From an uncultured Flavobacteriales bacterium (GTDB taxonomy: Bacteria > Bacteroidota > Bacteroidia > Flavobacteriales_G > Salibacteraceae), in contig CALCCE010000095.1 in the NCBI GenBank assembly GCA_937899835.1, positions 1 through 64,000 of the forward strand: 64,000 bases of DNA, given 5' to 3'. Position numbers and translations under genes: made by a program. Each line of letters begins with the position of its first letter. Within the stretch, counting starts at the first letter, position 1. Under the pieces are notes generated by a model. It was not told the origin of the DNA and did no database searches. It worked only from the letters and a program-made list of their open reading frames with translations. This document shows positions 16,661-31,609 of this stretch, piece by piece.

Positions 16661-17389
16661 TTATTGGGTCAAATAAGCAATTAGGATTCCAAATATGATA
16701 ACTCCGAACTTGTAGCGATTGAACAAATGGTTTTCGTTGCTTTCGAACAGAATGGTAGTGGAAATGTGCAACAGAATTCCCAAAACAACCCCTAAAATCA
16801 GCGCTGGATAATGCGCTACATCGCGAATGAAATGTTCGCCTAAAAAATGGCTTAACGCAGTGCCCAAGGGCATCATGGCGGCAAACACCAGTAACCAAAG
16901 CACCGCCCGCCATTTCGACAGCCCCGATTGCAGCAGTAAAGCCATGAGTACAACGGCAACAGGTATTTTGTGCAGAATAATGCCCAACAAAAGACTGTTG
17001 CCGTGGCTGTGCCCATCCCCACCCGCGTGGTGATGGTCGTGTAGTGGCATACCTTCCAGAAAAGAGTGCAAACAAAGGCTTATAAAAATTGCGTAAGGGA
17101 AGCGCTTGGATTTTTCGTGTAAGTGTACGTGCCCGTGTTCAATTCCACCCGAAAAGTAGTCGAGAAACAGCTGTATGAAGAACCCGGTAAGTATGTAAAT
17201 ACCTGCTTTGGGTCCGGCTTGATCGTATACCTCTGGCAATAGATGAAGTACTGAAATACCAAAAAGGTAAGCACCACTAAAAGCAAGGAGCAATTTTAGC
17301 CATCGCGCATTCTGTAGGTTGAAAAAGAGAACGGCACATCCACTGGAAACCACCAGCAGGGTAAGAAGAATGTAAAGGTGTAGACTCAA
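16661..17389 (-). CDS. ZIP family metal transporter
   Basis: The 242-residue protein has about eight hydrophobic spans and the two ZIP metal-site helices, LCLHSFLEGMPLHD and LGIILHKIPVAVVL, plus a histidine-rich cytoplasmic loop (HDHHHAGGDGHSHGN). The family imports Zn2+, Fe2+ or Mn2+ into the cytoplasm. The only start compatible with the first membrane span is a TTG at 17389, one base after the methyltransferase stop region, so translation probably depends on coupling to the upstream gene. Confidence 0.9.
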   Translation of the reverse strand: MSLHLYILLTLLVVSSGCAVLFFNLQNARWLKLLLAFSGAYLFGISVLHLLPEVYDQAGPKAGIYILTGFFIQLFLDYFSGGIEHGHVHLHEKSKRFPYAIFISLCLHSFLEGMPLHDHHHAGGDGHSHGNSLLLGIILHKIPVAVVLMALLLQSGLSKWRAVLWLLVFAAMMPLGTALSHFLGEHFIRDVAHYPALILGVVLGILLHISTTILFESNENHLFNRYKFGVIIFGILIAYLTQ

Positions 17390-17390
17390 T

Positions 17391-18140
17391 TTAGGTGGGT
17401 TGGACTACCAGAATTAACCGGTCGGAAGTTGCTTCTTGATAGGAGCCAAGTGTATAATCACCAAATATATGCAAGATTCGAAAACCACTTTCTTGAAACA
17501 AGCGCTCAAATTCTGCAAGGGTAAAAGCAGTTACGTTTTCCTGGAAAGTGTAGGACCGCCCCCGATCTTTGAATTCGATCGTTTTTACGATCTGTTGACC
17601 GTTCCATCTTTTAGACGTGTGAAAAATAATGTCTTCCCGCACCACACGTGCCTCGTGTGGAATGTGCTTTTTTACCCAATGAGCATTAAAAAAGTCGAGA
17701 ATGAAACAGCCATCAGTCACCAGGTTTTCGCGAACCGCCTTGAGAACCTTGAGGTTATCAGCAGGATCATCGAAATAACCAAAGCTGGTGAAAAGATTAA
17801 ACACCATTTCGAAGCCTTGAGGTCGGAAAACCTCGCGCATATCGTGCACCTGAAAATCGAGTCCGGTTTTCAGATGTTGCTGTGCAAAAGCGATGCTTTG
17901 TTGAGAAAGGTCTACTCCGGTGGTGTTGTAGCCCAGCTGATGTAAAAAAATGGAGTGCCTTCCACGGCCACAGGCGAGATCTAGAAATCTCGCCTGTGGG
18001 GAAGGTTGTATAAAATCAATCAGGTGCCTGATGAATTGCCGTGCCTCCGCTTCATCTCGATTGGCATAAAGCAAGTGATAGTAAGGGGTATCGAACCACG
18101 TGGCATACCACGCGGCACCTCTTTCCAGGGGATGGCTCAT
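17391..18140 (-). CDS. Class I SAM-dependent methyltransferase
   Basis: The 249-residue protein has the Rossmann methyltransferase motif I in RFLDLACGRGRHSIFLHQLGY, the acidic ribose-binding GVDLS and motif IV-like MVFNLFTSFGYFDD. A C-terminal half with SYTFQENVTAFTLAEFERLF resembles small-molecule methyltransferases. Substrate is not identifiable. It is 1 base upstream of the ZIP gene and 22 bases downstream of the S46 peptidase gene, so the three may be cotranscribed. Confidence 0.88.
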   Translation of the reverse strand: MSHPLERGAAWYATWFDTPYYHLLYANRDEAEARQFIRHLIDFIQPSPQARFLDLACGRGRHSIFLHQLGYNTTGVDLSQQSIAFAQQHLKTGLDFQVHDMREVFRPQGFEMVFNLFTSFGYFDDPADNLKVLKAVRENLVTDGCFILDFFNAHWVKKHIPHEARVVREDIIFHTSKRWNGQQIVKTIEFKDRGRSYTFQENVTAFTLAEFERLFQESGFRILHIFGDYTLGSYQEATSDRLILVVQPT

Positions 18141-18162
18141 CGGGCCTGATGTTCAATCAATA

Positions 18163-20382
18163 TTAATTGGTAGTTCCGTCAACCGGAGCATCCATAGAAG
18201 CCTCTTCCTTTTTCGGAGGGTCTTTTACCAAAGTCATTTCCTCTACAAGGTGTCCGGCTCCGGCAAATTTGTCCACTACAAAAAGCACGTAGCGAATATC
18301 CACCACGATGCAACGTTGCAACTTTTGCTCAAAGGCAATGTCGCCACTCATTGCTTCCCAGTTCCCATCGAACGCACAACCGATCAATTGACCTTTGCCG
18401 TTGATTACCGGGCTACCAGAGTTTCCACCAGTAATGTCGTTGTTGGTGATGAAGCAAACCGGCATTTCACCGTTTACGCCGTATTGTCCGTAATCTTTAG
18501 CCGCATACAAGTCCTTGAGTTTTTGAGGTACCACAAACTCATCGTTGTTGGGGTCTTCTTTCTCCATCACACCCGCCAGGGTAGTGAAGTAGTTGTAATA
18601 AACCGCATCTGCAGGATAGTAATCCAACACCTGACCGTAGGTCAAGCGCATAGAAGAATTTGCATTCGGATAGTACTTTTTGTTCGGATTCATTTCTCGC
18701 AATCCAGCAACGTACAAACGATTTCCTTTGTCGAGGTTGGTGTAGTATCCGCTCAAAGTAGGACGAATGTTGCTCAGGTAGTGGTTGAAGAAAGAGGCAA
18801 ACATCTGATAAGCCGGATCCTTATCCAACACCTTTTTGGATGGCTTTTCTAAGAAAGCATTCAAACGCTCCTCAGAAGCAAAAACAGACTTGGCAAAAAC
18901 GTAGTCGGTCCACTTCTTGTAATCGCCTTTAAACTTGCCTTTAATCTGCTTATTCATTACTTCAGGCTGCATCTTGGCCACCAGGTCTTCCCCGTAGAAA
19001 CGCAACAAAGCCGCAGTAACTTTACGATCAGTGGGCATGTTGTAGTTTTTCCAGTGTTTGGCAGCCTGGGCTTTTAGCGCTTTCACCGCCCCATCCAATT
19101 TTAATGGATCAACATCGTCCTTGGAAAGTACCCGCTTCAAGGAGGAAGCACGGTAGCAAAGCAACATGATCTCCGAACCGAACACACATTCGTTCAAATA
19201 GGTACGAGCAAGGCTGTAATCGCCCATTTCTTTGTAGGAATTGGCAATTAGATCGATGGCTTCACCGTACATTTCCTTGCGCTTGTTGTCGGCATTTACC
19301 CAACTTTGAAACGCATCTTCTTCTGCCTTCTTTTTGTCGTATACCTTCAGGCGTTTCAAGCCACGGGTTTGCCCCTTGAAGTACTTGTAGTAATTGCTTA
19401 CACCTGCGTATTTTGAAGCGTATTTGATCCGGGTTTCATCGCTGGCGTTCATGTCTTCTTTCATCAAGGCCAAACGCTGCTCGCGAATTTTAACGGTCGC
19501 CGGTTGGGTCAACTCAATGGCTTCTTTTACGCCATAAGAGGTGAGGTAGCGGTCGGTGCTTCCGGGATAACCCATAACCATGGCGTAATCGCCCTCTTTC
19601 ACTCCATTCATCGAGATGGGCAAGTGGTGACGTGGCTTCAGGGGCACATTGTCCGCTGAATAATCGGCTGGTTTTCCGTCAGGGCCTGCATATACCCGCA
19701 ACATGGAAAAATCGCCGGTATGACGGGGCCACATCCAGTTGTCGGTGTCGCCACCATATTTTCCGATAGAAGAGGGAGGAGCCGCTACAAGGCGTACATC
19801 GCGAAAGGTTTCGTATACAAACAGATAGTATTCGTTGCCTTCAAAGAAACTCTTGACGGTGGCATTGTAATCCGTGTCTTTCGTTGCAGCTTCTCTGATA
19901 TCTTTCGACTTTTGTGCAATCATTTTGGCACGGTCGTCCTCAGAAGTATTGGCATTGATGCCTTCCAGCACCTGCTTGGTAACGTCTTCCATCCGGATCA
20001 GAAAACCGGCGGTCATTCCGTTGGCAGGCAACTCTTGCTTGCGGTTCATGGCGAAAAAGCCATCCGTAAGGTAGTCGTGATCTACCGAGCTGTTGTCTTG
20101 AATCGCGCCAAAAGCGCAGTGGTGATTGGTGAGCATCAGTCCTTGACCAGAGATCATTTCTGCTGTACAAGAACCACCACTCAACATCACGATGGCGTCT
20201 TTTAATGAACTATTGTTAATGCTGTAGATTTCTTCAGCCGTTAATTGTAGCCCTTTCTTCTGCATGTCCTGGTAGTTCAGGCGCTGTACAAACATGGGCA
20301 GCCACATGCCCTCGTCAGCCCGCGAAACCCCTGGGAAAAGTAAGGCGCAAACCGTAAGGCAAAGAATAACTCTTTTGAGCAT
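18163..20382 (-). CDS. S46 family dipeptidyl-peptidase, DPP7-like
   Basis: S46 peptidases release dipeptides from the N-terminus of oligopeptides in the periplasm. The 739-residue protein has a signal peptide ending near ADEG and the split chymotrypsin-like triad: His in TNHHCAFG (87/88), Asp224 in RHTGDFS and Ser655 in GGNSGSPV. The S1 specificity position is Gly673 in FDGNWEAMSGD. DPP11, which needs Asp or Glu at P1, has Arg there; Gly is the DPP7 state, favouring hydrophobic P1 residues. The final DPPKKEEASMDAPVDGTTN tail looks disordered. Such enzymes feed amino-acid use in Bacteroidota. Confidence 0.95.
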   Translation of the reverse strand: MLKRVILCLTVCALLFPGVSRADEGMWLPMFVQRLNYQDMQKKGLQLTAEEIYSINNSSLKDAIVMLSGGSCTAEMISGQGLMLTNHHCAFGAIQDNSSVDHDYLTDGFFAMNRKQELPANGMTAGFLIRMEDVTKQVLEGINANTSEDDRAKMIAQKSKDIREAATKDTDYNATVKSFFEGNEYYLFVYETFRDVRLVAAPPSSIGKYGGDTDNWMWPRHTGDFSMLRVYAGPDGKPADYSADNVPLKPRHHLPISMNGVKEGDYAMVMGYPGSTDRYLTSYGVKEAIELTQPATVKIREQRLALMKEDMNASDETRIKYASKYAGVSNYYKYFKGQTRGLKRLKVYDKKKAEEDAFQSWVNADNKRKEMYGEAIDLIANSYKEMGDYSLARTYLNECVFGSEIMLLCYRASSLKRVLSKDDVDPLKLDGAVKALKAQAAKHWKNYNMPTDRKVTAALLRFYGEDLVAKMQPEVMNKQIKGKFKGDYKKWTDYVFAKSVFASEERLNAFLEKPSKKVLDKDPAYQMFASFFNHYLSNIRPTLSGYYTNLDKGNRLYVAGLREMNPNKKYYPNANSSMRLTYGQVLDYYPADAVYYNYFTTLAGVMEKEDPNNDEFVVPQKLKDLYAAKDYGQYGVNGEMPVCFITNNDITGGNSGSPVINGKGQLIGCAFDGNWEAMSGDIAFEQKLQRCIVVDIRYVLFVVDKFAGAGHLVEEMTLVKDPPKKEEASMDAPVDGTTN

Positions 20383-20433
20383 AATACGTTGATTTTTAAA
20401 TGCTTGAGGAGGTGTTTAGATTAGTGTGAGCCA

Positions 20434-20441
20434 CAAATTTA
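20434..20441 (-). promoter_or_regulatory. -7 element of the S46 peptidase gene
   Basis: TAAATTTG on the minus strand matches the -7 consensus about 52 bases upstream of the ATG at 20382. No good -33 element is visible. Confidence 0.45.
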
Positions 20442-20529
20442 TGAATTCCGCCCAATGCGCTCTGCATATAATGTCAAACGGTTCAATGGCTTTATGTGTG
20501 GAATGCCTTTTAAATGCATGGGATTGTGT

Positions 20530-20537
20530 TAGTTTTG
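20530..20537 (+). promoter_or_regulatory. -7 element upstream of the 20586 lipoprotein
   Basis: TAGTTTTG matches TAnnTTTG and would give a leader of about 45 nt. It is divergent from the S46 peptidase promoter. Confidence 0.4.
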
Positions 20538-20585
20538 AAGTGCTTCGATGGCAGAAAAAGGAAACAAACACTGTGATTCAACGTA

Positions 20586-21419
20586 ATGAAGGGCATGTTT
20601 AAACAAACGGTAGGCAGTTGCCTTCTGATAGGTCTGCTGGTATTTTCCGCTTGTAAGAAAACGGAGATTGATCGAGAAATGCAATCCGCACAAGACTTAC
20701 ATCTCGCAGAAACGGTTTGTAATCAAATCATTGCCATTGCTCTGGCCGAAGCCCACGCTGAACCATTGGTGAACAATCGAACCGATTCGACCGATAGCAA
20801 CCGCCTGGCAGTGGATTGCGCCAGCAAAGGTTTGTTCGGTCAGGTAGCAAATTTTCCCGGAGGAACCGTCACCTTATCCCTCGATTACAATGGGGTAGCC
20901 TGCGCTGACATTGATAACAAAGCCCGGCAAGGAAACCTTTCCTTAGTCTTTACCAATAATTATTGGTCCAATCGAAATGCCTCCTTCGTGGCCAGCCCCT
21001 CCGGATACTTTGACGAAACCGTTATGGTGAATGGCAACTTCAATTTTCGACACGTAGGAACTGACACCTTCGAAGTAACATTGGAGTTTGGAAAAATTAC
21101 CGGGAGCGGATTTTCGTTCGCCTACACCTTCTCCAAGCAAGTTTATTGGACCCAAGGCTCCGATACTGATGCTAATCTTACCGATGATGTATTTGTAATG
21201 GAGGGTAGCTTTGAAGGTACCAATCGAAATGGCCGCAGTTTTACCGGAGCTATCGAAACTCCTATTGTTTGGGAAACAGTTTGCGGATATTCGAAAATCG
21301 GAGAGGTGACCATTGTACCGTCCGCATTGGCCGCCAGAAAAGTGATTTATAGAACAAATTGCATGAATACTGCCACATTGAACCTACATGGGGAGGATTC
21401 GGCCCTCAGTCTTAAATGA
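20586..21419 (+). CDS. Hypothetical lipoprotein
   Basis: I do not recognise this family. The 277-residue protein has a lipoprotein signal (LLVFSACKK, Cys23), a short helical region with several histidines and acidic residues, and then a beta-rich body with repeated aromatic and Asn/Gly turns, suggesting a surface or periplasmic beta sandwich. Cysteines in VDCASKG, GVACADID, TVCGYSK and TNCMN could form disulfides. It stands alone between the divergent S46 gene and the SiaB gene. Confidence 0.75.
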   Translation: MKGMFKQTVGSCLLIGLLVFSACKKTEIDREMQSAQDLHLAETVCNQIIAIALAEAHAEPLVNNRTDSTDSNRLAVDCASKGLFGQVANFPGGTVTLSLDYNGVACADIDNKARQGNLSLVFTNNYWSNRNASFVASPSGYFDETVMVNGNFNFRHVGTDTFEVTLEFGKITGSGFSFAYTFSKQVYWTQGSDTDANLTDDVFVMEGSFEGTNRNGRSFTGAIETPIVWETVCGYSKIGEVTIVPSALAARKVIYRTNCMNTATLNLHGEDSALSLK

Positions 21420-21539: not shown

Positions 21540-22088
21540 ATGATAGACATCCACGATTTCTACGATGAAATGGAGCGGGAAAACATTATGCTTTCCTTCA
21601 AAGGTGAAGTCACCTCGGAACTACTGACCTCCATATTACAAATCATGGAATCGAAGTTGGACAACATTTCCGAAGCACCTAAGGTGAAGCGGAAAGTGTT
21701 CAACGTGTTGGTAGAATGTTTACAAAACCTGTATCATCATATGGATGAGTCGCCGGTAGCTTCTACCGAAGATGGCAACTCCAAACGCAAAGCCGTGTTT
21801 ATGATTGGTAAAACCGGAGAAGGATATCGCATCATCTCCGGCAACTACATGCACACCGAAAACGTGAGTCCCTTACAAGGACGTCTCGATGAAATTAATT
21901 CCCTCGATCGTGATGGCTTGAAAGCCTTATACAAACAAGTCCTAAACAATGGACAAGTTTCGGAGAAAGGGGGAGGAGGGCTCGGAATGATCGACATCGC
22001 TCGAAAGTCGGGTCATCCGCTGGCGTATAATTTTACCGAAGTCAACGAAAAGCTTTCATTCTTTACACTGAACATACTAATTTCCTAA
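21540..22088 (+). CDS. SiaB family protein kinase (DUF6272)
   Basis: The 182-residue protein is a HATPase-like kinase of the SiaB family. The N-box-like VECLQNLYHHMDE lies near residue 60 and a glycine-rich ATP lid, EKGGGGLGMIDIARKSG, near residue 143. In Pseudomonas, SiaB phosphorylates SiaC and thereby stops SiaC from activating the diguanylate cyclase SiaD; SiaA (a PP2C-like phosphatase) reverses this. Here SiaB is followed after 14 bases by a SiaC-type gene, but no SiaA or SiaD homologue is in the window, so the output is unknown. Confidence 0.85.
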   Translation: MIDIHDFYDEMERENIMLSFKGEVTSELLTSILQIMESKLDNISEAPKVKRKVFNVLVECLQNLYHHMDESPVASTEDGNSKRKAVFMIGKTGEGYRIISGNYMHTENVSPLQGRLDEINSLDRDGLKALYKQVLNNGQVSEKGGGGLGMIDIARKSGHPLAYNFTEVNEKLSFFTLNILIS

Positions 22089-22102
22089 TTCAACATAAAC
22101 AG

Positions 22103-22489
22103 ATGGATACGATTCATATCGAAGGAACTCCTAAAACACCCACCATCAATTTTAACCCCGAAAACGGGTTGTTGGAGATTCAGGGACGTTCCATTCCGGA
22201 AAACGCAGTCGATTTTTACAAGCCAGTGGTAGATTGGCTGACCGAATACGCTCAAAGCCCTGTTGGTCAGACGGTAATGAATATTCAGTTAGAATATTTC
22301 AATACCTCCTCCTCTAAGTGCATCCTCGATGTGCTGAAAAAACTGGAGGTGATCAACAATCAAAGTAGCGGTTCTGTGAAAGTACGGTGGCACTACGAAG
22401 AAGACGACGAAGACATGCTGGAAGCAGGTGAGGATTACGAAGCCATCATCGATGTGTCTTTCGAGATGATCGAGGTAGAGGAAGAGTAA
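22103..22489 (+). CDS. SiaC family regulatory phosphoprotein (DUF1987)
   Basis: The 128-residue acidic protein has the DUF1987 fold and the segment LEYFNTSSSKCILDVLKKLE, with Thr68 followed by serines. Pseudomonas SiaC is phosphorylated by SiaB at Thr68, as I recall, so the phosphosite seems retained. It is the likely substrate of the kinase encoded just upstream. The C-terminus is strongly acidic (EEDDEDMLEAGEDYE). The pair ends at an intrinsic terminator and converges on the ABC transporter gene. Confidence 0.85.
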   Translation: MDTIHIEGTPKTPTINFNPENGLLEIQGRSIPENAVDFYKPVVDWLTEYAQSPVGQTVMNIQLEYFNTSSSKCILDVLKKLEVINNQSSGSVKVRWHYEEDDEDMLEAGEDYEAIIDVSFEMIEVEEE

Positions 22490-22512
22490 TTCACTTTCCA
22501 ATCCAAAGAATC

Positions 22513-22546
22513 AAAAGGCGATTTCCAAAAGGAACTCGCCTTTTTT
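22513..22546 (+). terminator. Terminator of the SiaB-SiaC pair
   Basis: A 9-bp stem AAAAGGCGA/TCGCCTTTT with an inner TCC/GGA helix, a small internal loop and an AAAA tip is followed by six T. Confidence 0.8.
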
Positions 22547-22639
22547 GTTGCTGCTTTCTATCAATGAATAAAAAAAAGAAAGTTGTGATGGAGTGATGGA
22601 AAGTCCCAAGTTAGCTTAATACTCCTGCTGGAACTCTAA

Positions 22640-25600
22640 TTATTTCTTAGCAAGCCCCTTTATCATTCCACCTAATTTACCAGTCAGATTGAGAAACTTG
22701 CGTAAGCTTTCGAAATAAAGGGTCACCATCAATAGCACTGATATGGACCATACCACCAAAAAGTTTACCCAATAGGTATCGTAGTATAAACCCATAAACT
22801 TCTTTCGAGGAGCATAAAAATGTGCTCTGAATCCGTCAGGGTCAAGGTAGATCGGGTCTGCCCTTTGAATGAGCTCGCCGTTGGCCTCAGAGATTTGATT
22901 CACTTCAGTTTTGTTAGAAACCAGATCGCTGAGGCTTTCATTAGTATAGTTGTTTTTTGCCTCCCGATAAGCTTCTCGACTGGCTTCATCGGCGGTACTT
23001 TCCCGTACCAACTCATCTTTGAGGTTGCTGTTGGTGTTGTATTGGGCAATATACACCTTGTTGATTTTCTTCAAGAACTTTTTGGTGGAATTGAGCACCT
23101 CCTTCGAAATCGATTCGCGGTCGAGTTTCGCTAAAAATTCAGGATGTTCCCACCCAAGGTACTGAAGCTCTTTGATCAGCTCATTGCGCAGCAAGGTCAG
23201 GTTTTCGGTAATTTGTTCCTGTTTTTCTTCGTTTTTCAGGTTGTTTTCAACGTTGCCTACTTTGCCTTGTAAGACCGGCACCCAAAAGTTCTTCTTAAAA
23301 GAGGCAACGCTCATTTCCTTGTTGTAAGGATAGAAGCGGGTCTCGAATTCGTTGTTTTTAAACTGGTTGACTACCAAACCCTCAAACGCCCAACGAGAAG
23401 TCATTACCTCACCGATAAAAGGCACGTTTTTTTGAGTAGTCATCGTTGGGTTCAGCTTCTCAAACTTCACAATAACCCCACTGAAGAGCAGCTGGGGAAT
23501 GATGAGAAACGGAATGAGAATATAAATAGTAACTGCTGAATTAAAGCTCGCCGAGATGTTCAGCCCAAGAATGTTGGCAAAACAAGCCGTGGTAAACAGC
23601 ATTAGCCAATAGTCGAAGAACAACCCTATCTCCAAAATCGCATTACCAATCAGCACAAACGAAAGGGTTTGAATGGCCGAAATGGTAAACATGATCAGAA
23701 TCTTCGACATCAGATAGCTGCCTTTACTCAAGTTGAGGAAAGACTCCCGTTTGCGAATTTTCTGATCTTTTATAATCTCCTCTGCACTCACACTTAATCC
23801 GAGGAAAAGTGCAACAATAACCGCTATAAAGATGTAAGCCGGAATGTTCTCATTGTTGAACAACAGGTACTCGTTGCCTTCATCCGTCGAAATGTTCCAA
23901 TATTTTAGGAAGAAGGAAAGCACAAAGGCCAAAATCGGAGCTTCCAACAAGTTGATCAGCATGTACTGCTGATTGGAGATTTTGGAAAGTAAATCACGCA
24001 AAACAAACACCTGTAGTTGGCGCAACTTATTGGGAATCTTGAAGGAAATTTTAGGCAGTGATGGTGCCGACTGAGTAAGTTTTAGCGTTTGATCAAAACG
24101 ATTCAGGTAGTACTTATTCCACTCTTTCGGAGAGATTTTACGATCTGTTGTAGCGTTTCCATATTCGTCCAACACCTTCGTTTCGATGATGTTGAAGATT
24201 TGCTCCGGATTCACATTACCACAGGTCGCACACTCGCTGCTTTGTGTAATTGCTTGATTTACAGCGGTCTTGAAGTATTGGATACCATCGAGTGGGTTGC
24301 CATAATAAATGGGATATCCACCAGTGTCCATGATCAGCAGCTTGTCAAACATCTTAAAAATGTCTGACGATGGCTGGTGGATCACCACAAAGATCAGCTT
24401 GCCTTTCAGCGCCAATTCTTTGAGGAGGTCCATGATGTTTTCCGAATCTCTTGAGGAAAGACCGGAAGTCGGTTCATCTACAAACAAAACAGCGGGTTCC
24501 CGCATCAATTCCAAGGCAATGTTGAGGCGCTTACGCTGACCACCCGAAATGGTCTTATCCAGCGGGTTGCCTACCTTCAAATCCTTGGTTTCGAACAATC
24601 CAAGCACATTCAGCAGGTCCTCAACAGTCTTATTGATCTGCTCGTCATTGTAATCGGCAAAGCAGAGTTTTGCATTCAGGGCAAGGTTCTGGAAAACGGT
24701 GAGGTCTTCCAACAGCAAGTCATCTTGCGAAATATACCCGATCATACCTTCCACAGCATCCTTCTCCGAATGGATGTTGCGTCCGTTGATCAATACCCCA
24801 CCAGTGGTGGGCACATAGTTGCCGTTCAGTACGTTGAGCAGTGTCGATTTTCCTGCACCACTGGCCCCCATGATCCCGATCAACTTGCCCGATTCCTCTT
24901 CAAACGTTAGGGGATGCAAGCCCATGTTGCCTCCCTTAAATTGATACGTGATGTCCTCGGCGGTAAACACCACCTTCGACTCTGTTTTGTCGCTCAAAAA
25001 GCGACTGATGATATCAGAGTAGTAAATCGGAAGCACCTTGGTGCTTCGAATGGAAGAACCTTGGGTAAGAATATAGGTACGATCAGGGTCGATAACCTGA
25101 CCGTTGATGTACAATTCTTGTTGGCCAAAGTAGCGAACTACGTAAGTACCAACACTTTCTACCGAAAGAATAATGAGTTGTTCCTCACCAAGGGTTTCGG
25201 CCTGGATATGCTTGTTGTGCTCCCGGCCTATCAGCCCGGTAGTGCGGTTGATAATGAGGATTTCCTCAATATCGGGCACATCGTTGCGCTCACAAGTAAT
25301 GAATGCCAGCGCATTGTCCAACTCTGCACGTTGAACATTGAAAACCTCACTTACTGTTACGATGAAATCAAGCTCTTGTTGGTTGATTTCTTTATCGGCA
25401 TATACGTATTCGATGATGCGAAGCAGCACAAAGATTTTCTGCTTCTGGGTCAGTTCTCCGTTGATCTGTGTACAGATCCGCAGAACCTTTACCGAGTTGA
25501 GCGATGTACGCTTGCGCGAACTGTCCTTGCGTTTTTTGGAAATGTTGTGGTGGGCCTCCAAAAACACATCGTAGAGTTGGAGGTATTCCTCAATTAGTTC

Positions 25601-25720
25601 CTGATTGAGGCGCTGCTTGAGAAAGGTCTCTACTACGCTTCGGCTCCTATTGTTGATACCATCGTAATCTGCAACGATGGCAAACAACTGCATTAGAGCT
25701 TTAAGTATTCGTTCGCTCAT
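22640..25720 (-). CDS. TerB/FHA-like/ABCG-type fusion ABC transporter
   Basis: This 1026-residue protein combines several modules. Residues 1-145 are helical and TerB-like (LRIIEYVYADKEINQQELDFI). Residues 150-240 are beta-rich and look FHA-like (LYINGQVI then TQGSSI). Residues 250-490 are an ABCG/White-type ATPase with Walker A GASGAGKST (285-293), signature ISGGQRKRLN (391-400), Walker B VLFVDEPTSGL (411-421) and His448. From about 570 come ABC-2 type membrane spans, a large non-membrane insertion (about 775-970) and a last span near the C-terminus. It is the last gene of an operon with a lipoprotein and a secreted protein. Substrate is unknown; export or signal-controlled membrane work are both possible. 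Confidence 0.85.
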   Translation of the reverse strand: MSERILKALMQLFAIVADYDGINNRSRSVVETFLKQRLNQELIEEYLQLYDVFLEAHHNISKKRKDSSRKRTSLNSVKVLRICTQINGELTQKQKIFVLLRIIEYVYADKEINQQELDFIVTVSEVFNVQRAELDNALAFITCERNDVPDIEEILIINRTTGLIGREHNKHIQAETLGEEQLIILSVESVGTYVVRYFGQQELYINGQVIDPDRTYILTQGSSIRSTKVLPIYYSDIISRFLSDKTESKVVFTAEDITYQFKGGNMGLHPLTFEEESGKLIGIMGASGAGKSTLLNVLNGNYVPTTGGVLINGRNIHSEKDAVEGMIGYISQDDLLLEDLTVFQNLALNAKLCFADYNDEQINKTVEDLLNVLGLFETKDLKVGNPLDKTISGGQRKRLNIALELMREPAVLFVDEPTSGLSSRDSENIMDLLKELALKGKLIFVVIHQPSSDIFKMFDKLLIMDTGGYPIYYGNPLDGIQYFKTAVNQAITQSSECATCGNVNPEQIFNIIETKVLDEYGNATTDRKISPKEWNKYYLNRFDQTLKLTQSAPSLPKISFKIPNKLRQLQVFVLRDLLSKISNQQYMLINLLEAPILAFVLSFFLKYWNISTDEGNEYLLFNNENIPAYIFIAVIVALFLGLSVSAEEIIKDQKIRKRESFLNLSKGSYLMSKILIMFTISAIQTLSFVLIGNAILEIGLFFDYWLMLFTTACFANILGLNISASFNSAVTIYILIPFLIIPQLLFSGVIVKFEKLNPTMTTQKNVPFIGEVMTSRWAFEGLVVNQFKNNEFETRFYPYNKEMSVASFKKNFWVPVLQGKVGNVENNLKNEEKQEQITENLTLLRNELIKELQYLGWEHPEFLAKLDRESISKEVLNSTKKFLKKINKVYIAQYNTNSNLKDELVRESTADEASREAYREAKNNYTNESLSDLVSNKTEVNQISEANGELIQRADPIYLDPDGFRAHFYAPRKKFMGLYYDTYWVNFLVVWSISVLLMVTLYFESLRKFLNLTGKLGGMIKGLAKK

Positions 25721-25770
25721 ATTGGGTGCGAAAGCGGTGACAGATCAAGGCCACCGTTTAGAGAAGGCTT

Positions 25771-26196
25771 TTATTGTTTAAATCCCACCAAAAGGATAGC
25801 ACAGCCAGAAGAAGCCGAATAGTCTGGATCAAGTTGCGCTTCAACAATACAATCCAGCGTGTTGGTCACCTGAAAATCCCAGTACACTGCATTGTGATGG
25901 TCGGCATTGGAAAACAAAAGGTTACGTTCCTGATCGTAGACCCGAAATAACAGGTTTCTCTTCCCGATACGGCTACAGGCTGCCAAACGGTAGGTAGTAC
26001 CTCCAAACATGGTTAGCCGAAACTCCGCCACCTCATCATTCAGCAGGAGAGCACGGTATTGCTGTCCATCAGAAATGAATTCGGAGGAAATGTTATTGCT
26101 ACAAAGGTTGGCCAGACTATCGCATTGTGCGAAGGCTGAACCGGTACTTAGAAATGCGGTAATAAGAATTACCAGCTTCAAAAATCTCATGTGCAT
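25771..26196 (-). CDS. Small secreted protein, unknown
   Basis: I do not recognise this 141-residue protein. A signal peptide ends SAFAQCD, and the mature part is a compact beta-rich domain with six cysteines (CDSLANLC, AACSR, LDCIVE, GCAILL among them). Its order of strands and the final GCAILLVGFKQ resemble GOLD/PPC-like beta sandwiches, but this is a guess. The ATG at 26196 or 26190 could be used. It lies 6 bases after the lipoprotein gene and 50 before the ABC fusion gene. Confidence 0.72.
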   Translation of the reverse strand: MHMRFLKLVILITAFLSTGSAFAQCDSLANLCSNNISSEFISDGQQYRALLLNDEVAEFRLTMFGGTTYRLAACSRIGKRNLLFRVYDQERNLLFSNADHHNAVYWDFQVTNTLDCIVEAQLDPDYSASSGCAILLVGFKQ

Positions 26197-26202
26197 GCTT
26201 GG

Positions 26203-27108
26203 TTAACCTACCAGTTGGTTGCGAATAGCGGCAATTTTATCCGCTAAGATTTGTAGTTTTTCTTGAGTGATACGGGCTTCGGATCGGCTGTTGATCACCG
26301 TTAGCTTTTGATCGGGATTGGTTTCGGGCGCCTCATACGTATAGCGGAGGTCCACATCTCTATATTCCGATTGCAGGTCTTTAAGTTGTACCAATAAATT
26401 TTCCAATTCGTCGGTACGGTTTTCCAACCGACTCAGTAGTGCCAGGAGGTTTTCTAAAGAAGACCGTTGTTGACCTACCCGGTTGCGCAATTCATCGCTG
26501 TCTGAGTTAATGGCAATGCTGGTAGCAAAGTACATCGACTCTACCCAGCCACCGGCCAGAATCAAGATGCCCAACTCCTCGCTTTTATTTTCTTTCAAAT
26601 AAGAGTCACTGAGCAAGTACGCTTCTCCTACAAGACTCAACAAAGAGTCTGTGTTTTCAATGTTGTTGCCAAAGCGATCGAGCAAGTTGTTGGTGAAGAC
26701 ACTCGCCATCCCCATCTCGTTGCTGATCTTTTTGCAACTGGCCAAAAATTTCAATCCCTCCTGAGTTTGGCGATTCACCAAAGCGTAACCCAGGTCTGCA
26801 CCATAAACCCCCATGTTGACCGCTTGAGAAAAGCGAGTGGAATAGGCATCTACCTTATCCGGGTTGTTTAGCAATTCCGGATTAAATGTGGCACCAGCTT
26901 GTTTTAGGTCAAAGGCCGTTTGAATCGGCGATGGAACACTAAACATTTTGTTACCAATTTTTAGCACAGAAGGTGTTTGTTCTTTGTCCGGGTCCTTGGC
27001 CTTTTCGGCATTGGAACCATCGCCACCCGACGAACAAGCTGATACCCCAATGGCTGCTACCAACAACCACGCTACGGAGCGACTCCGTAATTTTCGTTCA
27101 AAAGACAT
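26203..27108 (-). CDS. Helical lipoprotein, unknown
   Basis: The 301-residue protein has a lipoprotein signal (IGVSACSSG, Cys25) and then an almost wholly helical body, with a coiled-coil-like stretch around residues 215-260 (SLENLLALLSRLENRTDELENLL is the core) and a second near the C-terminus. No family is recognised. The ATG at 27108 was preferred because it gives a compact signal peptide; one at 27129 is also in frame. It is the first gene of the operon that ends with the TerB/ABCG fusion and may be its periplasmic or outer-membrane partner. Confidence 0.72.
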   Translation of the reverse strand: MSFERKLRSRSVAWLLVAAIGVSACSSGGDGSNAEKAKDPDKEQTPSVLKIGNKMFSVPSPIQTAFDLKQAGATFNPELLNNPDKVDAYSTRFSQAVNMGVYGADLGYALVNRQTQEGLKFLASCKKISNEMGMASVFTNNLLDRFGNNIENTDSLLSLVGEAYLLSDSYLKENKSEELGILILAGGWVESMYFATSIAINSDSDELRNRVGQQRSSLENLLALLSRLENRTDELENLLVQLKDLQSEYRDVDLRYTYEAPETNPDQKLTVINSRSEARITQEKLQILADKIAAIRNQLVG

Positions 27109-27187: not shown

Positions 27188-28987
27188 TTAAGCCCGATTT
27201 TCCGGCATTTCGCGGAGGATTCCAGAACGTTTTAGCGACCACCTCAGAAGGACCATTGAGATCACTGAACAGCCACTCCAAATTCCTGCTTCCATCCACA
27301 TTGCAAAGATTGTTTTTCCAAGTGCAAAAAGCACGGAATAGGTGAGAAAAATTCCGCTTAACCAGGCTAAAATCAACCAAGATGTGTTACCATCTGCTGC
27401 ATCCAGTCCGGTGACCTGCCGAATCTTCTTCCAGCTCCCCGCTGGACGAACTCTACGATAAAATTCTTCAAGGGTTGCATCATCAGTAGGTGGAGTGATA
27501 AAAGTAGCAATCAACCAACACACAGTAGAGAAGACGATGGTAAAGAAAAAACTGTTGGGCCAGGTCATGTCAAAAACAAAATTCCCTAGGGTGTAGCCCA
27601 CCAATGGAGCGAGTGTAGCGGTAATTTCACTCCAGGCATTGATGCGCCACCAATACCAGCGCAAGATCAACACCAGGCCCAGACCAGCCCCACATTCTAT
27701 CAAAAAACGAGCTGCCTGATCTACCGTTTCGATCTGTAGCGTGACCCCAAAAGAAATCACCATGATGAGCAGAGTAGATACCCGGGCCGCCCAAACATAG
27801 TTTTTCTGGGCAGCTTCAGCGGAGGGGAACGAAGATTCAGGCTTTAGAAATCGTTTGTAAAAATCGTTGGTCAGGTAACTCGCCCCCCAATTGAGGTGCG
27901 TGGAAATCGTACTCATGTAAGCCGCGAGAAAAGCCACAAAAAGCAATCCGAGCAGCCCGTGTGGCAGGTGGTCGACCATGGCCCGAATGTAACCGTTGCC
28001 TGCTTCCTGAGGGCCCAGGTCTGGGTAGAGCACCAAAGCACAAAGCCCCACCACAATCCAGGGCCAGGGCCGCAGGCAGTAGTGTGCAATGTTGAATAAC
28101 AAGGTAGACAATAGGGCATCTTTTTCACTACGGGCACTCATCATACGCTGCGAAATGTATCCCCCGCCACCCGGCTCATTGCCCGGGTACCAGCTGGCCC
28201 ACCATTGAAACATGCCATAGGCAAGGAATCCGCCGATGGAAAGGCTGAATACCTCTGCTGCCGAACCCCCTCCCGAATCTCCCGAAACCTGGGGAAAGAA
28301 ATCAAAACGCCACGCCGGCAGTTTTTCTTTCAGGCCAGCAATGCCACCTACTTCCTCAGAGTTGACCACCAGAAAAGCCAATACGATACAACCGGTCATG
28401 GCCAATACAAATTGAACAATGTCAGTAATTGCTACACCCATCAGGCCAGATAAACTGGAATAAAACGCCACCAAGACCATCAACCCCGCAGCTATCCAGA
28501 TACCCTGCTCTGCTGGCAGACCAAAAAACTCGGTAAGAATTTTCAGCAATGCCGCATTGACCCACCCAATGATGATGGCATTCAAAAAGATACCCATGTA
28601 TATGGATTTAAACCCTCGTAGTAGCGTTGCCGGTTTACCGCTGTAGCGTAACTCAATGAGTTCCAATTCGGTCAAAACCCCAGACCTACGCCACATTTTG
28701 GCAAAGAAAAAAGTAGTGAGCATGCCGCCAATCAACATGTTCCACCATTGCCAGTTGCCCGAAATGCCAAAACGGTGAATTTGCTCGGTAACCCAGATAG
28801 GTGTATCAGCGGCAAAAGTGGTGGCCACCATCGAAATGCCTGCTATGTGCCAAGGCAGATTTCTGCCCCCCAGAAAGAAATCGGAAATGCTTTTACCCGC
28901 CTGCGCCCTAAAGCGCAAACCAATCAGCAAAGTGAGCAACAAGTAGCCAACAACCAGGGCCCAATCCAAGGTATTTAAGGTGTCCAT
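27188..28987 (-). CDS. Sodium:solute symporter (SSS/SLC5 family)
   Basis: The 599-residue protein has about 13 membrane spans. SSS features are the N-terminal DWALVVGYLLLTLLIGLRF, SDFFLGGRNLPWHIAGISMVAT, and a later LNWGASYLTNDFYKRFL segment typical of the SGLT-like branch in Bacteroidota. It would use the Na+ gradient, such as that made by Na+-NQR, to import an organic solute that cannot be named. The start at 28987 gives the family N-terminus; the reading frame extends upstream but that part overlaps priA and is not protein-like. Confidence 0.92.
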   Translation of the reverse strand: MDTLNTLDWALVVGYLLLTLLIGLRFRAQAGKSISDFFLGGRNLPWHIAGISMVATTFAADTPIWVTEQIHRFGISGNWQWWNMLIGGMLTTFFFAKMWRRSGVLTELELIELRYSGKPATLLRGFKSIYMGIFLNAIIIGWVNAALLKILTEFFGLPAEQGIWIAAGLMVLVAFYSSLSGLMGVAITDIVQFVLAMTGCIVLAFLVVNSEEVGGIAGLKEKLPAWRFDFFPQVSGDSGGGSAAEVFSLSIGGFLAYGMFQWWASWYPGNEPGGGGYISQRMMSARSEKDALLSTLLFNIAHYCLRPWPWIVVGLCALVLYPDLGPQEAGNGYIRAMVDHLPHGLLGLLFVAFLAAYMSTISTHLNWGASYLTNDFYKRFLKPESSFPSAEAAQKNYVWAARVSTLLIMVISFGVTLQIETVDQAARFLIECGAGLGLVLILRWYWWRINAWSEITATLAPLVGYTLGNFVFDMTWPNSFFFTIVFSTVCWLIATFITPPTDDATLEEFYRRVRPAGSWKKIRQVTGLDAADGNTSWLILAWLSGIFLTYSVLFALGKTIFAMWMEAGIWSGCSVISMVLLRWSLKRSGILREMPENRA

Positions 28988-29119
28988 AAGAAGCCAAAGG
29001 AACAAAAATGCACCGTCGGTATCCGGCCTTTCGAGCACCAGTAATTCAGTAGAGTGTGTTGAAAACCAAGCGCCTAAATCAAGGCTGTTGACTTCTGAGG
29101 GCATGGCAATGGCATTCCT

Positions 29120-29127
29120 TACATTTG
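29120..29127 (+). promoter_or_regulatory. -7 element 4 nt before the priA start
   Basis: TACATTTG matches TAnnTTTG and ends 4 nt before the GTG at 29132. Transcription should start at or near the start codon. The closest upstream TTG is too far (29 nt) to be a normal -33 element. Confidence 0.5.
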
Positions 29128-29131
29128 CTTC

Positions 29132-31609
29132 GTGTCCGAAACCACCTACTTTGCCGATGTCATTCTCCCTTTGGCAGTGCCTCGCTTGTATACCTATCGG
29201 ATACCGCGAGTGCTCAATGCAGAGATAGTACCCGGAGTGCGGGTAGTAGTACAATTCGGTAAAAGCAAATTGTACAGTGCCCTTGTGCGCAAAGTGCACA
29301 CTTCTCCTCCCAAAGAGTACACCGCCAAATACCTGGACTCGGTTTTGGATCAAGGTCCAATAGTACTGGAGAAACAGTTCGAATTTTGGGATTGGATGTG
29401 TAAATATTACCTCTGCCACATCGGTGAGGTGATGAATGCAGCCCTACCGGGTGGTTTCCGGTTGACCAGCGAAACCAGGGTGGTCATGAACCCCAACTTT
29501 AGCTCCGATTACACCCAGCTTGATGATCGGGAATACCTCATTGCAGAGGCCCTGGAAGTGCGCATGGTATTGAGTATTGATGAGGCTTCGGACATCCTTC
29601 AGGTCAAAACCGTTTATCCCATCATCAAGTCGATGATCGACAAAGGGGTAGTGTTGTTGGAAGAAGAGCTGAAGACCCGCTATAAACCTCGCATGATATC
29701 TTTGGTGGAGCTCACCGAAGTAGCCAATCAGGAAGAAAAATTGGAGGTGCTGTTCAATGAGTTGGAACGGGCACCCAAGCAGCAGCAGGCACTGATGGCC
29801 TACGTTCAGTTGAGCCAGCGGTATTCCAAGGCCCCCCAACCGGTAAAAAAGCTGGAACTGCAAGAAAAAGCCCAGGTGAGCGCTTCCATCGTCAATCAAT
29901 TGGTGAAAAAAGAGATTTTCAGCATTAGAGAGGTGCAGGAAGGCCGATTGCAGGAGTATGAAGGCGACAGCAAAAGTCTGACCCAATTGAGCGAAGCGCA
30001 ACATGCCGCCTACACCGAAATCCAATCCGGTTTTGGAAAGCAAGACGTCACGCTTCTGCATGGTGTCACCTCTTCGGGAAAAACCGAGATTTACGTTCGC
30101 CTGATTCAGGAAGCGATCGAACAAGGCAAGCAAGTGTTGTATTTGTTGCCCGAAATTGCACTCACCACGCAAATCATCAGCCGTTTGCAACGCTATTTCG
30201 GCGATCGGGTAGGGGTATACCATTCCAAATTCAACCAGCACGAACGGGTAGAACTCTGGAACAAAATGCTCGGAAAAGCTGGTGAATCCTACGATGTGGT
30301 GTTGGGCGCGCGCTCCGCAGTTTTTCTTCCGTTCCAAAATTTAGGGCTCATCATTGTAGACGAAGAACACGAGACATCTTTCAAGCAATTTGAACCTGCT
30401 CCGCGCTACCATGCCCGAGACGCAGCCATTGTAAAGGGCTTGAAACACGGAGCTAAGGTCTTGCTGGGATCGGCTACTCCTTCCGTCGAGTCTTACTTCA
30501 ATGCCCTCAACGGGAAATACAGTTTAGTGCACCTCGACCGGCGGTATGGGGGAGTTCAATTGCCCGAAATTTTTGTGGCCGACATCAAAGAAGCGACCCG
30601 CAAAAAATTGATGAAATCCCACTTTACTCCGGACCTGCTCAAGGCTATGGGCGAAGCACTGGAAAATAAAGAGCAGGTCATTCTTTTTCAAAACCGGCGT
30701 GGCTTCTCGCCTTACATCATTTGCGAAACCTGTGGTTGGAACCCCGAATGCAGCCGCTGCGATGTAGGGCTCACCTACCACAAGTATTTTGAAAAACTAC
30801 GTTGCCATTACTGTGGCCTCGAATCGCGCATGCCGCACACCTGTCCGGCTTGTGGAGCTTCCACCTTGACCCTCAAGGGCTTTGGAACCGAGAAGATAGA
30901 GGAGGAGTTGGGCATCTTTTTTCCCGATGCCAATGTGGGCCGAATGGACCTTGATACAACACGATCCAGAAATGCCTACCAACGCATCATTCAAAGCTTT
31001 GAAGATCGGGCCCTGGATATATTAGTAGGTACCCAAATGGTGACCAAGGGGTTGGATTTTGATAACGTAGCGCTGGTGGGCATACTCAATGCCGATAGTT
31101 TGTTGAGCTTCCCCGATTTTAGGGCCTTTGAGCGTAGTTTTCAACTCATGGCGCAAGTGTCTGGCCGGGCTGGCCGCAAGCAAAAGCGGGGCAAGGTCAT
31201 TATCCAAACCTACAATCCACACCATACCATCATCCGTCAAGTGATCGACAACCGATACAAGGAAATGTACCAGGATCAGGTGTTGGAGCGTAGAAACTTT
31301 CGGTATCCGCCTTTCTACCGGCTGGTACGCATGACTTTAAAACACCGGGACCGGGAAATGACACGGGAAGCATCGGCCGTTTTTGCCAACGAACTGCGAA
31401 GGTATTTTGGTACCCGGGTGTTGGGCCCGGAACCACCTTTGATCGGTCGTATCCGAAACCAGTATTTGCAGCAAGTGCTGTTGAAAATAGAACGCAACAC
31501 CCGGTTGGCACCGGCTAAAAATCAGCTGGAGCAGGTGCTTTCAGAGTTTCGATTCGAAAACCCCAACTTTAAATCGGTGAGAATTGTGGTTGATGTAGAC
31601 CCGATGTAA
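29132..31609 (+). CDS. priA: Primosomal protein N' (replication restart helicase PriA)
   Basis: PriA recognises stalled forks and reloads the replisome. The 825-residue protein has an N-terminal DNA-binding domain (FADVILPLAVPRLYTYRIP), a helicase core with Walker A GVTSSGKTE, the DEEH box in IIVDEEHETSFKQ and motif VI-like VSGRAGRKQKRG, and the inserted zinc region with paired cysteines (CETCGWNPECSRC and CHYCGLE, TCPACG). The start is a GTG at 29132, giving MSETTYFADVILP; no ATG fits the family N-terminus. It is convergent with yjbQ with only 3 bases between stops. Confidence 0.97.
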   Translation: MSETTYFADVILPLAVPRLYTYRIPRVLNAEIVPGVRVVVQFGKSKLYSALVRKVHTSPPKEYTAKYLDSVLDQGPIVLEKQFEFWDWMCKYYLCHIGEVMNAALPGGFRLTSETRVVMNPNFSSDYTQLDDREYLIAEALEVRMVLSIDEASDILQVKTVYPIIKSMIDKGVVLLEEELKTRYKPRMISLVELTEVANQEEKLEVLFNELERAPKQQQALMAYVQLSQRYSKAPQPVKKLELQEKAQVSASIVNQLVKKEIFSIREVQEGRLQEYEGDSKSLTQLSEAQHAAYTEIQSGFGKQDVTLLHGVTSSGKTEIYVRLIQEAIEQGKQVLYLLPEIALTTQIISRLQRYFGDRVGVYHSKFNQHERVELWNKMLGKAGESYDVVLGARSAVFLPFQNLGLIIVDEEHETSFKQFEPAPRYHARDAAIVKGLKHGAKVLLGSATPSVESYFNALNGKYSLVHLDRRYGGVQLPEIFVADIKEATRKKLMKSHFTPDLLKAMGEALENKEQVILFQNRRGFSPYIICETCGWNPECSRCDVGLTYHKYFEKLRCHYCGLESRMPHTCPACGASTLTLKGFGTEKIEEELGIFFPDANVGRMDLDTTRSRNAYQRIIQSFEDRALDILVGTQMVTKGLDFDNVALVGILNADSLLSFPDFRAFERSFQLMAQVSGRAGRKQKRGKVIIQTYNPHHTIIRQVIDNRYKEMYQDQVLERRNFRYPPFYRLVRMTLKHRDREMTREASAVFANELRRYFGTRVLGPEPPLIGRIRNQYLQQVLLKIERNTRLAPAKNQLEQVLSEFRFENPNFKSVRIVVDVDPM

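Follow-up and report, generated by a model that had tools for sequence, protein, structure and literature searches.

We describe here the genes around a SiaB-SiaC pair in a 64-kb window, the whole stretch of DNA that was analysed, which lies on contig C95 of a 6.9 Mb Bacteroidia genome. On the plus strand a gene for a SiaB-family kinase is followed after 14 bases by a gene for a SiaC-family phosphoprotein, and this pair converges, across a gap of 150 bases, with a minus-strand operon for a helical lipoprotein, a small secreted protein and a transporter of TerB-FHA-ABCG type, the lipoprotein and secreted protein genes being spaced by 6 bases and the secreted protein and transporter genes by 50 (Table 1). 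The open reading frames and their orientation, including that of the helical lipoprotein, are as claimed in an earlier reading of the same DNA, referred to below as the original prediction. The gap holds a hairpin (-17.1 kcal/mol, z -3.3; 0 of 200 shuffled sequences as stable) that is likely a terminator common to both convergent operons.

Table 1. Features of the locus in window coordinates.
Feature	Position	Strand	Basis and remarks
Lipoprotein, 277 residues, lipobox LLVFSAC	20586..21419	+	Open reading frame; no Pfam match
SiaB-family GHKL serine/threonine kinase, 182 residues	21540..22088	+	NF038262 E 2e-50; PF19788 E 1.5e-42; PDB 6kko_A E 1.6e-16
SiaC-family STAS-like phosphoprotein, 128 residues, motif YFNTSS around T68	22103..22489	+	PF09345 E 2.6e-43; PDB 6kko_C/7e6g E 1e-18
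Terminator-like hairpin	22513..22544	none (bidirectional)	T run on +, A run upstream
TerB-FHA-ABCG transporter, 1026 residues	22640..25720	-	TerB-like 1-143; predicted FHA fold ~150-240; YYSDI linker 233-237; ATPase ~250-470; ABC-2 567-787; C-terminal membrane-flanked region
Small secreted protein, 141 residues, signal peptide, five Cys	25771..26196	-	Open reading frame
Helical lipoprotein, 301 residues, Cys25	26203..27108	-	Open reading frame; upstream ATG would give 27129

SiaB exceeds the cut-off of the NF038262 subfamily model (170.6 against 85), with siaC next door, and stays below that of the narrower equivalog NF038264 (91 against 225); SiaC scores 147 bits with PF09345, for which the cut-off is 24.5. 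Threonine 68 (T68) of SiaC aligns with the phospho-acceptor of 6kko/7e6g, and the position is Thr or Ser in all 82 aligned sequences. In Pseudomonas aeruginosa the phosphorylation of SiaC at T68 is set by the PP2C phosphatase SiaA and the kinase SiaB, and it is unphosphorylated SiaC that binds and activates the cyclase SiaD, phosphorylated T68 blocking the binding (PMC7647112, PMC8457831). Elsewhere in the window's genome two SiaB-family kinase domains stand in tandem in one frame (contig C261, 44987-45937), and a search for SiaC found none nearby.

The pairing of SiaC with the transporter is well supported across genomes. Among 295 Bacteroidia genomes surveyed for co-occurrence, the transporter was found in 149 and SiaC in 172: both in 146, the transporter only in 3, SiaC only in 26 and neither in 120 (odds ratio 225, Fisher p 8e-52, uncorrected for shared ancestry). 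Gene order was read at 100 loci of the class, picked by transporter similarity alone and annotated with profile hidden Markov models seeded from the window's proteins, or from locus L091 in the case of PP2C. The genes found near the transporter at these loci were those for the lipoprotein (87), the secreted protein (72), SiaC (48), SiaB (38) and PP2C (24). SiaC adjoins the transporter at 46 loci, as compared to the ~0.8 expected by chance given ~4.2 SiaCs per 3.7 Mb genome (the genome size being averaged over 20 genomes), and does so in three gene orders: the convergent layout of the window (25 loci), SiaC directly upstream on the same strand in a SiaB-SiaC-transporter operon (14), and SiaC-lipoprotein-transporter (7). 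Other layouts make up 3 loci. The co-occurrence whose absence would have counted against the original prediction is borne out by both counts. A second sample, separately gathered but sharing some contigs with the class sample, shows the same pattern in named records: the operon type in Flexithrix dorotheae DSM 6795, a Cesiribacteraceae strain, and metagenome-assembled genomes of Breznakibacter and Saccharicrinis, and the convergent type in a Carboxylicivirga.

Could the juxtaposition in the window be an accident of local rearrangement? A survey of the window's family at first led to that view, as relatives separate the two blocks: the genes for a ZIP transporter, a methyltransferase and an S46 peptidase (the 16661-21419 side of the window) form a conserved block with SiaB-SiaC also when the transporter is found at another site (L106-L108). 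The class survey overturned it. The recurrence of the convergent layout at a quarter of the loci, in other families of the class, indicates that the family relatives most likely lost an ancestral layout, and we now give an accident hardly any credence. On the other side of the locus, a sodium:solute symporter gene (27188-29419, minus strand) immediately precedes the genes for lipoprotein, secreted protein and transporter, likewise in several genomes of the order (L095-L099), and on account of this shared position it may belong to the conserved block.

Phylogeny shows that SiaC and transporter types match. The SiaC tree unites all 16 operon-type sequences in a single clade (100/98), and a second clade (99/96) holds the seven SiaCs of the SiaC-lipoprotein-transporter layout; the three layout labels require 2 changes, the minimum possible, against 19.4 in shuffles. 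The split by arrangement occurs even within single genomes: the SiaC of the window is placed among the convergent-type sequences and that of contig C291, from the same genome, in the operon clade, and genome G076 shows the same. The tree of the transporters largely agrees with that of SiaC, with adjacency lost repeatedly.

Contig C291 of the window's genome carries a full collinear operon of PP2C, SiaB, SiaC, a 1031-residue transporter paralogue, lipoprotein and secreted protein (L016). The run begins further upstream and reads, in order, CheR-like, CheR-like, CheB-like, GAF protein, GAF-PAS-PAS-SpoIIE phosphatase, SiaB, SiaC, transporter, lipoprotein and secreted protein, the CheR and CheB names being read from sequence only; the GAF and CheB/CheR-like genes ahead of the phosphatase (L016, 15646-18894) hint at a methylation-type input. 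A complete PP2C-SiaB-SiaC-transporter-lipoprotein-secreted protein operon is also present in F. dorotheae DSM 6795 (L241), and SpoIIE phosphatase, SiaB, SiaC and transporter lie in a run in G038, a genome of the same order (L091). In tight operons of this kind the end of SiaC can be less than 100 bases from the start of the transporter. The PP2C proteins differ by locus type: those of convergent loci (for instance L134) have a Reg_prop/Y_Y_Y propeller, and those of operon-type loci are of the HAMP/GAF/PAS type.

The original prediction described the switch as being without SiaA or SiaD. This is correct at the window locus, but does not extend genome-wide for the SiaA type, as the genome encodes seven SpoIIE/PP2C proteins, one of them in the paralogous operon. 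The phosphatase for the window copy would presumably come from another site in the genome. For this role two PP2C proteins with a propeller (contigs C2 and C11) were considered, but their ~35% identity to the convergent-locus type is insufficient and leaves them as candidates only. No GGDEF protein was found in the window's genome, and of 42 genomes surveyed in the order 2 have such proteins and 40 have none. The known target of SiaC, a diguanylate cyclase, is therefore absent from this genome and the output of SiaC must differ.

The transporter matches ABC_tran (PF00005, residues 268-419) and ABC2_membrane (PF01061, residues 567-787) above cut-off and carries Walker A (GASGAGKST), signature (SGGQRKR) and Walker B (LFVDEP) motifs; on these grounds it is classed as an ABCG-like (ABC-2) half transporter with its ATPase fused to the membrane domain. 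Pfam TerB matches residues 8-137 (E 4e-6, 27.7 bits against a cut-off of 24.4), and the same model matches 42 of 47 transporter homologues at E<=1. Searching the PDB by sequence with the N-terminal part gave nothing useful. In a fold search with an AlphaFold2 model of residues 1-262 (47 homologues in the alignment; predicted local distance difference test, pLDDT, 90.5), residues 1-143 matched TerB-like PG1108 (PDB 2h5n) with a VIA-align Z of 9.7, and for residues ~150-240 the matches listed after the TerB-like top match were FHA-containing chains, at Z ~6-7. A Pfam scan of the transporter was negative for FHA, this fold being seen only via the predicted structure. The domain composition given in the original prediction consequently holds, the FHA-like region by structure and not by profile. 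A TerB-like N-terminus ~40% identical to that of the transporter also heads a 713-residue protein in three related genomes (L102, 6277-8418; L103, 7100-9241; L104, 7279-9420), where it sits in a conserved cluster of very large open reading frames (~870, 1070 and 1900 residues).

In the modelled structure, then, an FHA fold is present from which the canonical phosphothreonine-reading residues are missing. Across 188 homologues GR is found in 4%, SxxH in 0.5% and Asn in loop 199-203 in 24%, the loops having been assigned from predicted strands and not from superposition, and an acidic residue occupies position 202 in 78%. Conservation lies instead in K/R170-H171, S189, K/R196, G199, L-N-G 205-207, G221 and the YYSDI linker. 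These observations bear directly on the mechanism first put forward, in which the FHA domain reads phosphorylated SiaC as a phosphothreonine ligand and the transporter is controlled in this way. Although the fold in the predicted structure, the phosphothreonine site of SiaC and the linkage of the genes are all in keeping with it, the GR, SxxH and position 202 frequencies are not, the Pfam FHA model matches nothing anywhere in the window's genome, and phosphorylation of T68 abolishes target binding in the studied system (PMC8457831, PMC7647112). We consider this mechanism very improbable: the link between SiaC and transporter stands, and the reading of phospho-SiaC by the FHA domain is not supported. 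Because phosphorylation blocks target binding there, the polarity is likely the reverse of that originally suggested.

With regard to the exported proteins, Cys25 of the minus-strand lipoprotein is invariant in 35 aligned sequences, and a fold search with its model (pLDDT 85.5) gave no convincing match, the best Z of 8.8 being within the range of unrelated helical bundles. The secreted protein has no family match in Pfam or NCBIfam, and of the six cysteines originally attributed to it only five could be counted, one lying just past the signal peptide cut. Homologues of the plus-strand lipoprotein (Table 1) lie between SiaB and the PP2C gene in convergent-type loci of other genomes, and we therefore assign this protein to the SiaB/SiaC side.

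Taken together, we propose, with a probability of about 0.6, that the locus is a copy of a module conserved in Bacteroidia, whose TerB-FHA-ABCG half-transporter, working with an envelope lipoprotein and a small secreted protein, is under the control of a partner switch of SiaA/SiaB/SiaC type. The phosphate would be removed from SiaC T68 by a membrane PP2C phosphatase whose sensor is a periplasmic propeller or of GAF/PAS type; unphosphorylated SiaC would then dock on the cytoplasmic TerB/FHA/ATPase face of the transporter and license transport; and SiaB would rephosphorylate SiaC, releasing it. By analogy with the studied systems we infer that SiaC may contact the transporter directly and that its unphosphorylated form would be the active one, activating rather than inhibiting; the transporter would presumably act in the export direction, with the lipoprotein and secreted protein as its partners. 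Binding by dephosphorylated SiaC is favoured because the conserved neighbour is the transporter and because a precedent exists in the STAS protein MlaB, which binds the ABC ATPase MlaF and whose binding is weakened by a phosphomimetic at the equivalent Thr (PMC7367683).

Alternatively, unphosphorylated SiaC might be an inhibitor that shuts the transporter, or an assembly factor that stabilises it, with phosphorylation by SiaB turning the transporter on. The same linkage data would fit, and partner switches operate in either sense, as the SpoIIAA/RsbV systems illustrate. That the bound STAS-like protein promotes function in both of the closest precedents (SiaD and MlaF) makes this arrangement unlikely, if still worth serious attention.

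Several observations weigh against the proposed module. The window's SiaB-SiaC copy has no SiaA-type PP2C phosphatase beside it; 51 of the 100 class loci have no adjacent SiaC, with 15 loci ending at contig ends; in the window's own family the transporter is near universal and an adjacent SiaC rare, though the genomes usually encode SiaC; 26 genomes, as counted above, have SiaC without the transporter; and the presence of ~4 SiaCs per genome implies that other SiaC targets exist. SiaC might accordingly serve a common pathway or stress response by acting on another protein, for instance a sigma or anti-sigma factor, the transporter being only co-inherited or co-regulated. The number of SiaCs per genome and the many transporter loci without one are compatible with this, as is the third SiaC of the window's genome (L017, 9148-9522, contig C11), which has no SiaB beside it and adjoins a small sigma-factor-like open reading frame. 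Nevertheless, three gene orders hold SiaC and transporter together, SiaC type tracks arrangement, and the operons are tight, such that we rate an exclusively different target as improbable.

We further speculate, at what we would regard as even odds, that envelope export is gated class-wide by a threonine-phosphorylation switch, in which unphosphorylated SiaC would dock on a TerB-FHA adaptor no longer able to read phosphopeptides, and that SiaABC is a general plug-in switch serving membrane transport here rather than cyclic di-GMP synthesis. SiaC-family proteins are widespread, and the sole worked-out output in the literature found is the diguanylate cyclase in Pseudomonas. In the literature searched, subscription papers not being covered, nothing was found that describes SiaB/SiaC together with an ABC transporter, or a transporter of TerB-FHA type; the parts are known, and the coupling of a TerB-FHA-ABCG transporter to a switch of SiaABC type appears to be new. 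If the proposed module is real, it would provide a function for the SiaC pairing and for an abundant unannotated transporter in Bacteroidia, in an order where most genomes are without GGDEF proteins. In that case it would also be a clear example of an ABC exporter regulated by a STAS protein under the control of phosphorylation, which until now has been no more than a proposal, made for MlaFB. The model is directly testable in cultured strains.

Compared to SiaABCD, the module shares the SiaB kinase and a SiaC bearing T68, and a PP2C protein takes the SiaA position in the paralogous operon and in relatives. It differs in having no SiaD, in its conserved neighbours, which are an ABC transporter, a lipoprotein and a secreted protein, and in its phosphatases, which bear propeller or GAF/PAS sensors. 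The mycobacterial Rv1747/PknF pair (PMC3908365, PMC5549992) is similar in that an FHA region precedes the ATPase of a fused ABC ATPase/ABC-2 exporter, and a Ser/Thr kinase that controls the exporter is encoded alongside. Rv1747, however, has two FHA domains, and its kinase is of Hanks type and acts on the transporter itself, while in the present protein a TerB-like domain is joined to a single FHA domain without canonical residues, and the kinase is of GHKL type, paired with a separate phosphoprotein; the window's transporter operon, comprising lipoprotein, secreted protein and transporter only, encodes no Hanks-type kinase. PG1108 of Porphyromonas gingivalis (PDB 2h5n) is alike in fold to residues 1-143 but stands alone. 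In MlaFEDB (PMC7367683) the ABC ATPase is regulated by a STAS-fold protein, MlaB, and the interface holds a conserved Thr, the corresponding SiaC-transporter contact being proposed only. MlaB is without a known kinase/phosphatase pair and MlaFEDB is an MCE lipid transporter, whereas the present transporter combines ATPase and membrane domain in one protein that carries TerB and FHA domains as well.

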